A DNA stretch of 64,000 nucleotides from Desulfobulbaceae bacterium (GTDB lineage: Bacteria > Desulfobacterota > Desulfobulbia > Desulfobulbales > Desulfocapsaceae). Below, one piece after another: positions 12,138 to 58,298 of the stretch. Under the pieces are notes generated by a model. It was not told the DNA's origin. It did no database searches and saw only the letters and a program-made list of their open reading frames with translations. Made by a program: the position numbers and the translations under genes. The number at the start of each line of letters is the position of its first letter. Position 1 is the first letter of the stretch. The stretch lies in the NCBI GenBank assembly GCA_009773475.1, contig WSXV01000004.1, positions 62,001-126,000 on the forward strand, given 5' to 3'.

Positions 12138-12172
12138 AACGGGTTAAAAAGAAAAAATCTTTTTAACCCGTT
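12138..12172 (-). terminator. Strong hairpin terminator between fhs and pilB
   Basis: Perfect 15-bp inverted repeat AACGGGTTAAAAAGA/TCTTTTTAACCCGTT with a 5-nt loop; on the minus strand it is followed by TGTTTTTTT. It lies 235 bp beyond the fhs stop and 91-100 bp before the pilB start, so it should end read-through from fhs. Confidence 0.75.
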
Positions 12173-12289: not shown

Positions 12290-12409
12290 GTTTCTTGCCA
12301 AACGCCACACCGTGAAACAGCGGTACAGATTGCTGTTTCACGGATGCAGCATAAGAGTCCGTAAGTAAAAAGAGCAAGAAAAGCTTTGCTCTTTTTACAA
12401 CGGTCTCTA
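12290..12409 (-). repeat. Two-hairpin dispersed element, copy A (at the fhs stop)
   Basis: Begins with the fhs stop codon (TAGAGACCGTT). Hairpin I: 13-bp arms at 12386-12398 and 12365-12377 inside an outer AGAG-A-CCGT/ACGG-A-CTCT stem (12408-12400 with 12362-12354). Linker: TTACGGACTCTTATGC. Hairpin II: 12-bp arms at 12332-12343 and 12310-12321, with an outer wobble-rich stem. Aligns with copy B at 57889-58004: linker, loops and outer stem are nearly identical, while the inner arms differ with pairing preserved. Hairpin I may also terminate fhs. Between this element and the terminator at 12138-12172 (about 12173-12289) nothing is recognised. Confidence 0.75.
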
Positions 12410-14170
12410 AAATACCCCTTTCACCTTTCCAGTCTCCACGTCAACATCGACACGGCGGTAAGCCGGATCGGATGCAGTCCCCGGCATCAGGCTGATGGCA
12501 CCGGCCACCGGTACCACAAACCCAGCACCCTTATAGGTGAGAATATCGCGAATGGGCAGAGTCCAACCTTTAGGCACCCCTTTGAGTTTTGGATCATGGG
12601 AAAGAGAAAGATGGGTTTTAACCATACAGGTTCCCATCTCTTTCATATCGGGATCATCGGCCAGACGTTTCAGCTTGGCCTGGGCCTCAGGGGTATAGGA
12701 AACACCATCGGCGCCATAGACTTCACGCGCAATCAGATCGATACGTTTTTCCAGAGGGTCGGACAGATCGTAGAGGAACTTGAAATCATTTGGTTCTTCA
12801 CAGGCGTCCACAACGGCATCGGCAAACTCAAGGGCTCCTTCACCACCATGCTGCCAATGACGAGAGAGGGCAACCCGAGCGCCAGCAGCCTCACAGATCC
12901 GGCGTACCGCCTTGATCTCGTTATCAGTATCGGCGTAAAAGGCGTTAATACAGACCACGGGATTAATCCCAGCTTTCTTGACCGTTTCAATATGATGGAG
13001 CAGGTTTTTACAACCCTCCTCCACCCAGCCCACGTTCTCTTTTCCATACTCAGCCGGCATCGGCTTGCCGGGAACCGGAATGGGGGCACCACCATGACAT
13101 TTCAGTGCCCGGATAGTAGCGACGATAACCGCACAGTTGGGTTTATTGCCGGAGAAACGGCACTTGAGATTCCAGAACTTCTCAAAGCCGATATCAGCAC
13201 CGAATCCGGACTCGGTCACATTGTAATCGGCAATCTTCAGGCCAAGACGATCGGCTATGACTGAGGACTGGCCAATGGCTATATTGGCAAAAGGTCCGGC
13301 ATGCACCAGAACCGGCTGGCCTTCCAGGGTTTGTAATAGATTTGGATTCAAGGCCTGCACCATCCAGGCGGTCATGGCGCCATCGACCTCCAGATCAGCA
13401 GTGGTCACCGGCCTGTCCTGACGGTCATAGGCAACCACGATCCTGCCCATGCGTCTTCGCATATCAGCAAGATCATTGGACACTGAAAGAATCGCCATGA
13501 TCTCGGAGGAAACGGCAATGGCAAAGGATGATTGCATGGTATAGCCATCCATCTTGCCGCCGATACCAATGGTAATATTGCGCAGGGCCTGGGCGCAAAA
13601 ATCAATGATCCAGTTAAACTCCACTTTTTTGGGGTGGATATCGAGCCGCCGTAGATTGCGTTTTGCAAGCTGCTCATCGGTATAATTGGCCTCATGCTGC
13701 ATGCGCGAGGTCAGTGCCACCATCCCAAGATTGTGGGCATTCATGATGGCGTTAATATCGCCGGTCAGGCCAAGGGAGAATTCGGTCAGCGGAATACACT
13801 GGGCTAAGCCCCCACCAGCGGCAGACCCCTTAATATTCATGGTCGGCCCGCCGGATGGTTGCCGAATGGCACCGATAACGCTCTTGTTCCGCTTCCCAAG
13901 CCCCTGCACCAGCCCCATACAGCAGGTTGATTTCCCTTCACCAAGGGGCGTGGGTGAGATGGCAGTCACATCAATATATTTGCCGTCAGGTTTACTGCCC
14001 AGCCGGCTCATGATCTTCTTGAAATCAAGCTTGCCAATATAATGACCGTGCGGCAGGATCTCTTCTTTTGCAAGGCCGAGTTTTTCTCCCAGCTCATACA
14101 CTGTTTTCATCCGGCTTTCGGCTTCATGGGCAATTTCCCAATCAGCATGTTTGGTTGGATCAAGCACCAT
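12407..14170 (-). CDS. fhs: Formate-tetrahydrofolate ligase
   Basis: ATP-dependent activation of formate to 10-formyl-THF, entry of the methyl branch of the Wood-Ljungdahl pathway and a source of one-carbon units for purines. The 587-aa protein carries the ATP motif [11 protein letters not shown] near residue 75, the conserved [20 protein letters not shown] block and, near the C terminus, [18 protein letters not shown]. About 30 residues longer than the usual ~557 aa, mostly at the N terminus. ATG at 14170 has an AAAGGAG site 6 nt upstream. The stop codon is the first base triplet of the two-hairpin repeat. Confidence 0.97.
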
Positions 14171-48545: not shown

Positions 48546-48568
48546 CCATGGACAAGAATTCCTTTCTT

Positions 48569-48882
48569 CTTCCGGCAGGTCTTCTGACTCACGGATCAAC
48601 CGTAAACCGCGCCTTCCCATCCATCATCGAATTTCCCCAATAACAGACAGTGACTTCGGGAGGCCTTAATATGGCAAGCCGTCGCTTAAAACAACCTATA
48701 CTTTTTTGGTTCGTGAACGGCATAAGGAGCCGTAATGAAATGGATAAAAAAAGTATAAGTTATTTCTTAACGGCCCCTAAGGATCCCAATTGCGGTTTTT
48801 GTCCCCGTTTACAGCGCTGGCCCAACGTTACGGTTTTGCACCGTATTCCCTTTTCACCGTCCAATCAGGACGACACCGGAAG
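48569..48882 (-). promoter_or_regulatory. Cobalamin (B12) riboswitch with a large peripheral insert
   Basis: Minus-strand aptamer. P1 pairs CTTCCGG (48882-48876) with CCGGAAG (48575-48569). Core motifs in order: AAAAGGGAA (48854-48846), GGTGCAAAACC, GCGCTGTAAACGGGGAC, GTCACTG (48654-48648), GATGGGAAGGC, and the B12 box AGTCAGAAGACCTGCC (48589-48574). Between GGGGAC and GTCACTG lies an insert of about 145 nt, much larger than usual; most of it matches the two-hairpin element. Controls the ThiC-family gene 114 bp downstream. Confidence 0.9.
48663..48785 (-). repeat. Diverged third copy (C) of the two-hairpin element, inside the riboswitch
   Basis: Minus strand. Hairpin I: AGGGGCCGT (48778-48770) pairs with ACGGCTCCT (48733-48725), with inner GAAAT/ATTTC. 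Linker TTACGG...CTTATGCCG matches copies A and B at 15 of 18 positions. Hairpin II: GCCGT/ACGGC (48721-48717 with 48682-48678) and AACC/GGTT inside. TTGCC follows, like GGCAA ends of the others in position only. A CCTTA/TAAGG helix (48782-48778, 48668-48664) closes the insert. Homology to A and B is likely but not certain. Confidence 0.45.
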
Positions 48883-49081
48883 AATTCCACTCGCAATGAG
48901 TGTCTGTAAAATTAGTCAATAATAAGAAAAATGTAAAGATCAGGAATAGGACGCATTGCATTTTCAGGACTTTCTCACTATATTAAATCAAATAAAATAA
49001 CCACTTATTCACGAACCTATTCGCTCCATTTTTGCACCTTCCCGGCCACACCCTCAAAAATCTGAATCGCAGACTTTTCGT

Positions 49082-56340: not shown

Positions 56341-57891
56341 ATGAAATCTGACGATATCCTCAAAATTGTCCTCAATTCTCCTGAACTGCCCACCTTGCCC
56401 ACAGTGGCATCGGCAATCATCTCCCTGACTTCCCGGGAAGATGTCACCTTATCGGACATCGCTGAGCTGGTTTCAAAGGACATTGCCCTGTCTGCTAAAA
56501 TTCTCAAGGTTTCAAATTCCGCATTTTACAGCTTTCCCCAGCAGATCGGTTCCATCAACCAGGCCGTCTCCATTTTAGGGATCAATGCCGTTCGCTCTCT
56601 GGTGCTCTCGTTTTCATTTCTTTCGATCAAGACCGGAAATAAAAGCGATCATTTTGATTTTCAAAAATTCTGGGAAGATTCTCTCGCCTCAGCCGTCGCC
56701 GCCAGGCTTATTCTGGGGAAGGTGAAAGGGGCAGATACGGAAGAGATCTTTGTTTCAGGACTACTGCAGAACCTTGGGTCATTGATCTTTGCCAAGACCT
56801 TTCCGGATGAATATGAAAAAGTTCTTGTCCAGCTCGCTGAAGAAATAGAAACTATGTCTGAGATTGAAACAAAGGTGGTGGGAATCGATCACTGCATTCT
56901 TGGCTATGAGGTCGCCAAAAGCTGGGGTTTTCCTGAGGTTTTACTACTCCCCCTGTTATTTCATCATAATCCCCAGCAATATCAAGGACAAAACCCCAAG
57001 ATTAAGGCGACGATCAGCGCAGTCTATCTCTCGGATATTCTTGTTCATATCCTCTCCTCCACGAACCCGGAGGGGTATCATAAGCTGTTTCGCAAAGAGG
57101 CGAAAAGACTCCTGGGCCTGAGTAGTGAAGACATCGACAACATCCTGTCCAGTCTCCATCACCAGATGGATCAGGCGGCAGCATATTTTGGCCTGAACAT
57201 CAAAAACACCAGATCCATTCAGGAAATTCTGCAAGAGGCCAACATCAAGCTCAGCCTGCTCAACCTCAATTATGACCAGATTAACCAACAACTGGTGCAG
57301 ACCAAAATTAAACTGGAAAAGCTGACCGAGGAACTCCAGAATAAAAACAAGATCCTGGACAACCTGGCCAACATCGACGGATTAACCGAGGTTTACAACC
57401 ACCGTTATTTTCAGAACAGTCTGGAACAAGAGATCAATCGTTCCAGCCGTCATCAGACCGCCATCTCCCTGCTCCTTCTAGATATCGACCATTTCAAAAA
57501 GTTTAATGATACCTACGGTCATCAGGCAGGGGATTTTGTTTTGAAGAAATTTTGTGAGATTCTCCAGGAAAACCTTCGTAAATATGACACCCTGGCTCGT
57601 TACGGCGGAGAAGAATTCGTCATCATTCTCCCGGAGACTGTAGAATCAGAAGCTCTCGCCGTTGGGGAAAAACTGCGCGCGTCCATAGAAAACGCAATTT
57701 TTGACGACACCGATAACACCTACCGGGTAACGGCAAGTTTTGGCCTGACCAGCGCGTTCCCAGCCACGGTGGAGAATTTCAACAAGAACAACTTTATCAA
57801 TCAAGCAGATCTGGCCCTCTATGAGGCCAAACATGAGGGGAGAAACCGGGTTGTGGCCTACACCCCGAAGAAGAAGTGGTTTAATTTTTAG
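56341..57891 (+). CDS. HDOD-GGDEF diguanylate cyclase
   Basis: 516 aa, soluble. HDOD domain (~5-215; PTVASAIISLTSREDVTLSD and ILKVSNSAFYSFPQQIGSIN) senses an unknown cue, coiled coil (~300-345), and GGDEF domain (~350-510) with DNLANIDGLTEVYNHRYF, the active site RYGGEEFVIILPE, and the allosteric I-site RKYD five residues before GGEEF. The catalytic GGEEF and I-site are both intact, so a c-di-GMP-making, product-inhibited enzyme is expected. Its TAG stop is the beginning of the two-hairpin repeat copy B. Confidence 0.92.
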   Translation: MKSDDILKIVLNSPELPTLPTVASAIISLTSREDVTLSDIAELVSKDIALSAKILKVSNSAFYSFPQQIGSINQAVSILGINAVRSLVLSFSFLSIKTGNKSDHFDFQKFWEDSLASAVAARLILGKVKGADTEEIFVSGLLQNLGSLIFAKTFPDEYEKVLVQLAEEIETMSEIETKVVGIDHCILGYEVAKSWGFPEVLLLPLLFHHNPQQYQGQNPKIKATISAVYLSDILVHILSSTNPEGYHKLFRKEAKRLLGLSSEDIDNILSSLHHQMDQAAAYFGLNIKNTRSIQEILQEANIKLSLLNLNYDQINQQLVQTKIKLEKLTEELQNKNKILDNLANIDGLTEVYNHRYFQNSLEQEINRSSRHQTAISLLLLDIDHFKKFNDTYGHQAGDFVLKKFCEILQENLRKYDTLARYGGEEFVIILPETVESEALAVGEKLRASIENAIFDDTDNTYRVTASFGLTSAFPATVENFNKNNFINQADLALYEAKHEGRNRVVAYTPKKKWFNF

Positions 57892-58004
57892 AGACCGTTA
57901 GAAAGCCAGCAAGGTCTTTTTCTTGCTGGCTTTCTTTACGGACTCTTATGCCGCATCCAGAAACAGCAATCCTTACCGCTGTTTCTGGATGCGGCGTCCG
58001 GCAA
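57889..58004 (+). repeat. Two-hairpin dispersed element, copy B (at the GGDEF stop)
   Basis: Starts at the stop codon with TAGAGACCGTTA. Hairpin I: arms GAAAGCCAGCAAG (57901-57913) and CTTGCTGGCTTTC (57922-57934) inside AGAG-A-CCGT/ACGG-A-CTCT (57890-57898 with 57938-57946). Linker TTACGGACTCTTATG. Hairpin II: perfect 18-bp GCCGCATCCAGAAACAGC/GCTGTTTCTGGATGCGGC (57950-57967, 57978-57995), then GTCCGGCAA. Same layout as copy A, with loop AATCnnTACC identical at ends and stems changed on both sides. Confidence 0.8.
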
Positions 58005-58298
58005 ATAATAACTGCCATTAAGTCATATATCAATACCCGTCAGCCCTGCCTCCAGAGGTATCCTCCCGGCCAATTAAAATCCTTCATCCAACGGTGTCTC
58101 ACACATCCAGACCACTTCTGACCCTAAAAAATCTGTCCCCTTTTATTGAAATGAGTCATTTTGGTTCCCTTATTTGGATGGTGGTCATGGACGATGGTCG
58201 AGATTCGAGGGGCCTGACGTTTTGAATCACCAGAGCGGTCCACCCCGGACTCACCGCTCCACACCGCCACGTTCTTGCCGCCTCTGCAAACGCTTTAG
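58005..58298. other. Gene-poor segment after the repeat, possible mobile relic
   Basis: No intact gene. The stretch near 58122-58145 (CTGACCCTAAAAAATCTGTCCCC and following TTTTATTGAAATGAGTCATT) reads like flanks often seen beside IS200-like (Y1) transposases in related bacteria; this is recollection, not a database match. No transposase fragment seen. Confidence 0.3.

Follow-up and report, generated by a model that had tools for sequence, protein, structure and literature searches.

Two-hairpin repeats with variable but paired arms at stop codons and other transcript 3′ ends in a genus of Desulfocapsaceae

What kind of element is a two-hairpin repeat that begins at the stop codon of one gene and recurs at the stop codon of another? 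The question arises from a 64,000-nt window, the whole stretch of DNA analyzed here (assembly GCA_009773475.1, contig WSXV01000004.1, positions 62,001 to 126,000), in which the original prediction, made from the letters alone, had described two related copies extending from the host gene's TAG onward. The model scores, the folds and the two stop codons all bear this description out. Copy A runs from TTAG to CAAGAA at 12292-12410 on the minus strand and copy B lies at 57888-58007 on the plus strand; each is ~120 nt long and consists of TTAG, hairpin I, a short linker and hairpin II. The TAG of copy A is the stop codon of fhs (formate--tetrahydrofolate ligase, 12407-14170, minus strand; NCBIfam NF010032 above cut-off), and that of copy B is the final TAG of a GGDEF-domain gene (56341-57891, plus strand; TIGR00254 above cut-off), to which the original prediction also assigned a putative HDOD part. 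RNA folding places hairpin I at 12354-12408 in copy A (minus strand), with the A and G of the TAG stop in the stem, and at 57890-57946 in copy B (plus strand), with hairpin II at 12302-12352 (minus strand) and 57948-57997 (plus strand), respectively. A conserved block, TTACGGACTCTTATGC, spanning the end of hairpin I, the linker and the start of hairpin II, is exact in both copies (12349-12364, minus strand, and 57936-57951, plus strand); with up to three mismatches allowed, the window holds 3 matches to it vs. 0.35 expected from shuffling. A covariance model built from 35 copies of the same genome (hereafter R1) scores copies A and B at 125.5 and 130.3 bits, which serves as a register check and not as a test, since both are among the training rows.

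The predicted folds are very stable, with RNA folding energies of -56.6 (copy A) and -73.0 kcal/mol (copy B), z-scores of -7.7 and -13.0 (0 of 200 shuffles as low in either case), and DNA folding energies of -35.0 and -46.5. The opposite strand folds about equally well, so that energy alone cannot identify the acting strand. Between the two copies the arms differ in sequence and their pairing is retained.

If the two copies belong to a family, as originally predicted, the genome should hold more of them, and R1 indeed places the element at 48 loci. Queried by BLAST with one copy, this 3.03-Mb genome (91.48% complete) gave hits at 59 places. R1 returned 94 matches at E ≤ 0.01, including 63 of at least 50 bits. 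An antisense self-match accounts for one of the 63; by hand count of these rows, the genome contains 62 units at the 48 loci, with 14 units being further members of tandem arrays, where the 5′ leader and part of hairpin I are often missing from later units. BLAST detected the family in 17/17 genomes of the genus (Desulfocapsaceae MAGs) and in 0/41 other relatives, and R1 gave 15 to 120 matches per genus genome at E ≤ 0.01, totals that are inflated by antisense self-matches and by a sister family (family 2, below). A search of a species-genome collection with the linker pattern recovered 56 stretches which, besides one Nitrospira and one Geothrix, come from Desulfocapsa, Desulfobulbaceae and other delta-proteobacterial or unspecified proteobacterial records. 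Applied to six of these 56, R1 matched Geothrix terrae at 47.7 bits and four others; Nitrospira was rejected as a host and its hit taken as a chance pattern match, R1 having no match in that locus or genome. Family 1 had no match in plasmids and phages, nor did family 2 or the Geothrix copy in plasmids, and viral contigs yielded no stretch with the family-1 linker pattern and one with the family-2 pattern (L350), which R1 does not match. One array (L104:2690-3552) comprises a full first unit and four more at 190-nt spacing with equal low scores.

This distribution bears on the simplest alternative, namely that the copies are unrelated intrinsic terminators alike by chance or convergence. Some arms do carry A- and T-tracts like those of bidirectional terminators, but linker, loops and TTAG are common to 48 loci and 17 genomes, and presence is species-specific. 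We consider this explanation extremely improbable, and already refuted by the shared sequence blocks.

Where does the element sit? TTAG occupies the first positions of R1 at 48/48 loci of the genome, including 13/13 loci outside the training set. In a script that took the longest of three frames, the element's TAG closes an open frame of ≥75 codons at 35 of the 48; we count 34, because the frame at C6:205925 runs antisense over a gene start, and these are open frames by length, the 91-codon one at C1:61001 being doubtful. As a background, 8 of 186 TTAA/TTAG sites of the window (non-coding or at stops) are stops, a figure based on coarse gene calls and including copies A and B themselves. Among relatives, 51 of 71 distinct copies pass the in-frame stop test (240 nt upstream present, own copies excluded), and family 2 lies at in-frame stops in 2 of 18 cases, under a laxer 50-codon limit. 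The proposal that copies always follow stop codons thus applies to most loci but not to all of them. By eye, the element comes after an intrinsic terminator's T-run at three loci (C1:91899, C1:450175, C4:14510) and after rnpB at one, and at two it abuts an apparent ribosome-binding site of an opposite gene. Across the genus, again by eye, the element follows the T-run of rnpB in 12/16 genomes; in G012 it starts as the family-2 form, in G005, G002 and G015 the T-run is followed by other sequence, and G010 lacks the T-run. Since T-run and rnpB sites occur besides stops, the common factor seems to be a transcript 3′ end rather than the stop codon: the left end joins after TTA, often inside a T-run, and mostly at transcript 3′ ends.

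Two further features of position were seen at individual sites. The left end lies at or near an apparent opposite-strand ribosome-binding site at C6:205925, C1:315512 and C24:62894 in the same genome, and at L349 in Geothrix. At L003, L034 (C1:118611), L327 and L330 a long upstream frame is open into the element, which may there supply the last codons of a protein.

Comparison of orthologous sites indicates that the element comes and goes. At fhs it is present in four genomes (G000, G009, G014, G008), all with TTTTAG, and absent from seven others, all with TTTTAA; of ten orthologues of the GGDEF gene, four carry it and six do not. For 18 sites and five relatives, 60 site-genome pairs were found and sorted by a simple rule into 31 filled, 27 empty and 2 without data, the filled count being a lower bound because three or more of the alleles called "empty" hold degenerate or N-masked copies. 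Stop triplets extracted by script are TAG in 29 of the 31 filled alleles, and TAG (14), TAA (11) or TGA (2) in the empty ones. At C1:118611, empty alleles read TTTTAA and filled ones TTTTAG, with the exception of TTTCAG in G009. Occupancy thus varies between species at the same stop codon, which means that the element is gained and lost; at one site (L007), it is found at the same stop codon in 6/6 species sampled.

Termination was among the functions first proposed, and the evidence does not support it. A terminator scan of the two window copies found no intrinsic terminator (a GC-rich hairpin followed by a T-run) inside copy A or copy B. The native intrinsic terminator of fhs lies downstream of copy A (12138-12172, minus strand) and is retained in 11/11 orthologues with a 3′ end, 4 with the element and 7 without. 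As it is kept either way, termination by the element is unneeded at fhs, and termination as the function of the two window copies is unlikely.

More generally, the element could be a functional RNA of the 3′-UTR, with hairpins selected in the mRNA for stability, processing or termination control and with covariation as the trace of that selection. Consistent orientation, a left end mostly at transcript 3′ ends and also after rnpB, and the stability of the folds would all fit such an RNA, as would the filled site L007. Its patchy presence across orthologues, the native terminator that fhs keeps besides, and the lack of a terminator-like site inside copies A and B speak against it. So do the Rfam searches: over the whole window, only cobalamin and tRNA families scored above gathering, none of them on copies A or B, and at five loci searched at E ≤ 1 all matches to the element fell below gathering.

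The arms offer a more direct view of what maintains the hairpins. In an alignment of 120 distinct units, pairing holds in 96.3% of 4636 cells, and 30 of 39 pairs have changed on both sides. Covariation reaches 0.493 vs. 0.150 ± 0.005 when shuffled and 0.06-0.09 with slid partners (120 units), with the caveat that this alignment was fitted to the structure, leans to it and includes the training copies. Changes in the arms come in both halves together, and loops and linker are far better conserved. The predicted contrast between arms that differ and arms that stay paired is therefore confirmed, with covariation above background in both comparisons. Pairing selected in RNA is, however, expected to leave G-U in excess of A-C. 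Over all pairs, G-T/T-G outnumbers A-C/C-A by 207 to 70, but 140 of the 207 fall in two fixed pairs of hairpin II, and without these two (excluded after the table was seen) the counts are 67:67. In the control, RNase P RNA from this genus, the ratio is 100:12 over 28 variable pairs, on a predicted fold with 95% mean column identity and some fixed wobbles. When the pairs that show each kind are tallied by hand, RNase P has 16 vs. 7 and the element 27 vs. 25, a contrast in the same direction as the cell count but weaker. The two fixed pairs are strand-asymmetric (G-T 72 and T-G 68 vs. A-C 0 and C-A 3), which suggests that the sense strand is the recognized strand, by a protein or as RNA.

Orthologous copies point the same way. 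At nine hand-picked sites (19 non-independent comparisons), we counted 70 double Watson-Crick changes, 11 GT, 11 AC and 14 other; adjoining coding DNA is ~83-98% identical to that of the own genome where measured as DNA. Because double changes outnumber intermediates, we read the pairing as restored at the DNA level, and infer that template switching or conversion from other copies restores it. The absence of a G-U excess outside the two fixed pairs likewise favors DNA-level upkeep of pairing over RNA selection. That the sense strand conserves two G-U pairs speaks for a functional RNA, and the 67:67 ratio elsewhere speaks against it; with the evidence above, we consider that explanation unlikely. 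Of the original claim that covariation reflects selection on structure, the covariation itself is real, whereas RNA selection is unsupported, no G-U preference being seen outside the two fixed pairs. Covariation is widely taken to prove a functional RNA, and this family provides a test case for separating RNA selection from DNA-level hairpin upkeep, since it combines near-perfect covariation with no wobble bias at most pairs in a large natural family.

A third copy in the window belongs to the sister family. It lies at 48676-48780 on the minus strand (from 48666 by its R1 match, 35.4 bits, E 2.6e-6), in the loop of a peripheral hairpin of a cobalamin riboswitch (48557-48895, minus strand; RF00174, 74.2 bits) that stands upstream of a ThiC-type gene. 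The RF00174 alignment leaves a 148-nt stretch unshown where this copy sits, and in G009 and G004 the riboswitch has a short loop without a family-2 element. Family 2 is ~105 nt long (YTTA-GGGGCCGTTAAG...GACGGC-TTA), follows the same plan as family 1 with better conservation of its sequence, has matches in all 17 genus genomes and shows no tie to stop codons. The plan recurs in the Geothrix terrae genome, which has two R1 matches of 47.7 and 43.6 bits (L111:4112-4222, minus strand, and L349:1501-1615) with TTAGGGGCC or TTAGGGGGCC starts, CCTCTTATG linkers, and arms that are paired but different.

Two other repeats were seen in these sequences. A short repeat, approximately CACCCCCAACCCCCTCCTT and in most cases followed by the complementary AAGGAGGGGG, occurs near elements in L017, L018, L033, L038, L042, L048 and L050. 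A palindromic repeat, GATTATTTTCTTG...CAAGAAAATAATC, is present in L242 and L314, in the latter within a family-2 element.

The ends of family 2 raise the alternative of a DDE-type MITE that carries terminal inverted repeats and has TTA at its left and right boundaries, of which family 1 would be a decayed relative. By hand count, family-2 copies have YTTA on the left in 29/36 and CTTA on the right in 28/36, and their ends read as imperfect inverted repeats over 14/19 positions; in addition, when 108 family-1 copies were examined for a right end that inverts the left one, 4 had it, L098 loosely. The remaining 104 show no such right end, however, and the linker between the hairpins also holds TTA, so that TTA may mark each hairpin and not a duplication. 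This origin appears improbable to us.

Which enzyme might move the element? The original prediction had offered a REP/IS200-type palindrome as one explanation, and had counted a known IS end as evidence against its own reading; no known IS end was identified. Matches to PF01797 (Y1_Tnp) occur in all 17 genus genomes (75 in total), but at the 33 of these 75 loci examined with the covariance model and BLAST no Y1/HUH gene is flanked by the element: up to 1.5 kb on each side contained a single R1 match (15.2 bits, E 0.14), and BLAST at 5 loci of the own genome found no element beside a Y1/RAYT gene. In genome G015 (94% complete), R1 matches number 103 at E ≤ 0.01, but Y1 is limited to one fragment in a 65-codon frame. 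The REP-like half of the proposal, a repeated family of short palindromes, holds, and the link to IS200/RAYT found no support at these 33 loci. Integron attC sites were set aside, as the ends of the element do not appear to fit the attC core.

On balance, we lean slightly towards a small non-autonomous mobile palindrome, REP/BIME-like and recognized by its shape, that settles at transcript 3′ ends. Its unit would be TTAG, hairpin I, a linker around CTTATGCC and hairpin II, as observed, often in tandem. What an endonuclease or transposase would recognize is a single DNA strand in its folded form, by way of the foot, linker and loops; arm sequence would be irrelevant to it, leaving the arms free to drift, and their pairing would be restored when one arm is copied from the other (template switching) or when other copies act as donors in conversion. 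The observed position could then arise if the element inserts into T-rich non-template DNA where transcripts end and if harmful insertions are lost. In the mRNA, a hairpin whose base includes part of the stop codon may slow translation termination and protect the 3′ end, as a side effect that is possibly retained; by analogy with E. coli REPs, this is plausible because the A and G of the stop codon lie in the stem. Several observations count against the mobile palindrome: no Y1/HUH gene is flanked by the element at the 33 loci examined, G015 has the Y1 fragment alone, a terminal inverted repeat occurs in 4 of 108 family-1 copies, fixed G-T pairs are also predicted by an RNA function, and some sites are filled in all species sampled (L007 in 6/6), as would be expected of a retained function. 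More tentatively, and with rather more doubt than conviction, we propose that the element homes to the 3′ ends of transcription units, that its heritable identity is the fold, loops and linker, with sequence-free arms kept complementary by DNA-level copying, and that the mover is an enzyme other than a known RAYT. Such a family would be a mobile repeat unusually precise in its placement at transcript 3′ ends, with filled and empty alleles in several species.

How does the element compare with known systems? Titles and abstracts searched, among which few subscription papers were covered, do not describe this repeat in Desulfocapsa relatives, nor its stop-codon precision, free arms or lack of wobble bias. 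Single-strand MITEs derived from IS200/IS605 have subterminal hairpins recognized by shape and a fixed short target at the left foot. The element resembles them in its fixed left foot and in hairpins that are probably recognized by shape, but no TnpA gene carries its ends at the 33 loci.

With REPs and BIMEs in the broad sense, the element shares many short extragenic palindromes that also occur in clusters, and with GTAG REPs, as described in PMC3733652, a tag at the foot of the palindrome as well. The link to stop codons is likewise known in kind, since GTAG termini often supply the TAG stop of flanking ORFs (PMC3733652). GTAG REPs, however, have an unpaired GTAG at one palindrome end, stems of 5-13 bp (Table 1 of PMC3733652) and a RAYT gene flanked by copies, whereas the element has TTAG with its A and G paired, two hairpins per unit of ~20-25 pairs each, arms almost free to vary, a position mostly exactly at the stop codon, and no adjoining RAYT gene at the 33 loci examined. 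CGTC REPs lack a dedicated adjacent transposase, just as none was seen beside the element at the 33 loci, and the family-1 consensus carries GGCGTC after hairpin II; the stems of CGTC REPs are 8-9 bp with a terminal CGTC, these REPs are mostly head-head dimers, and the passages on them consulted in PMC3733652 mention no TTAG foot.

In E. coli, REPs lying no more than 15 nt from a stop codon are reported to stall ribosomes (Liang 2015, as cited in PMC12306157). The element similarly places a stable hairpin directly at the stop codon, with the difference that part of the stop codon itself lies in its stem. A parallel to its arms comes from hairpins in RNA genes maintained by template switching, where multi-base compensatory changes keep stems perfect (PMC8794818): multi-base compensatory changes preserve the stems here too, although in a repeat family without wobble preference and not in RNA genes.
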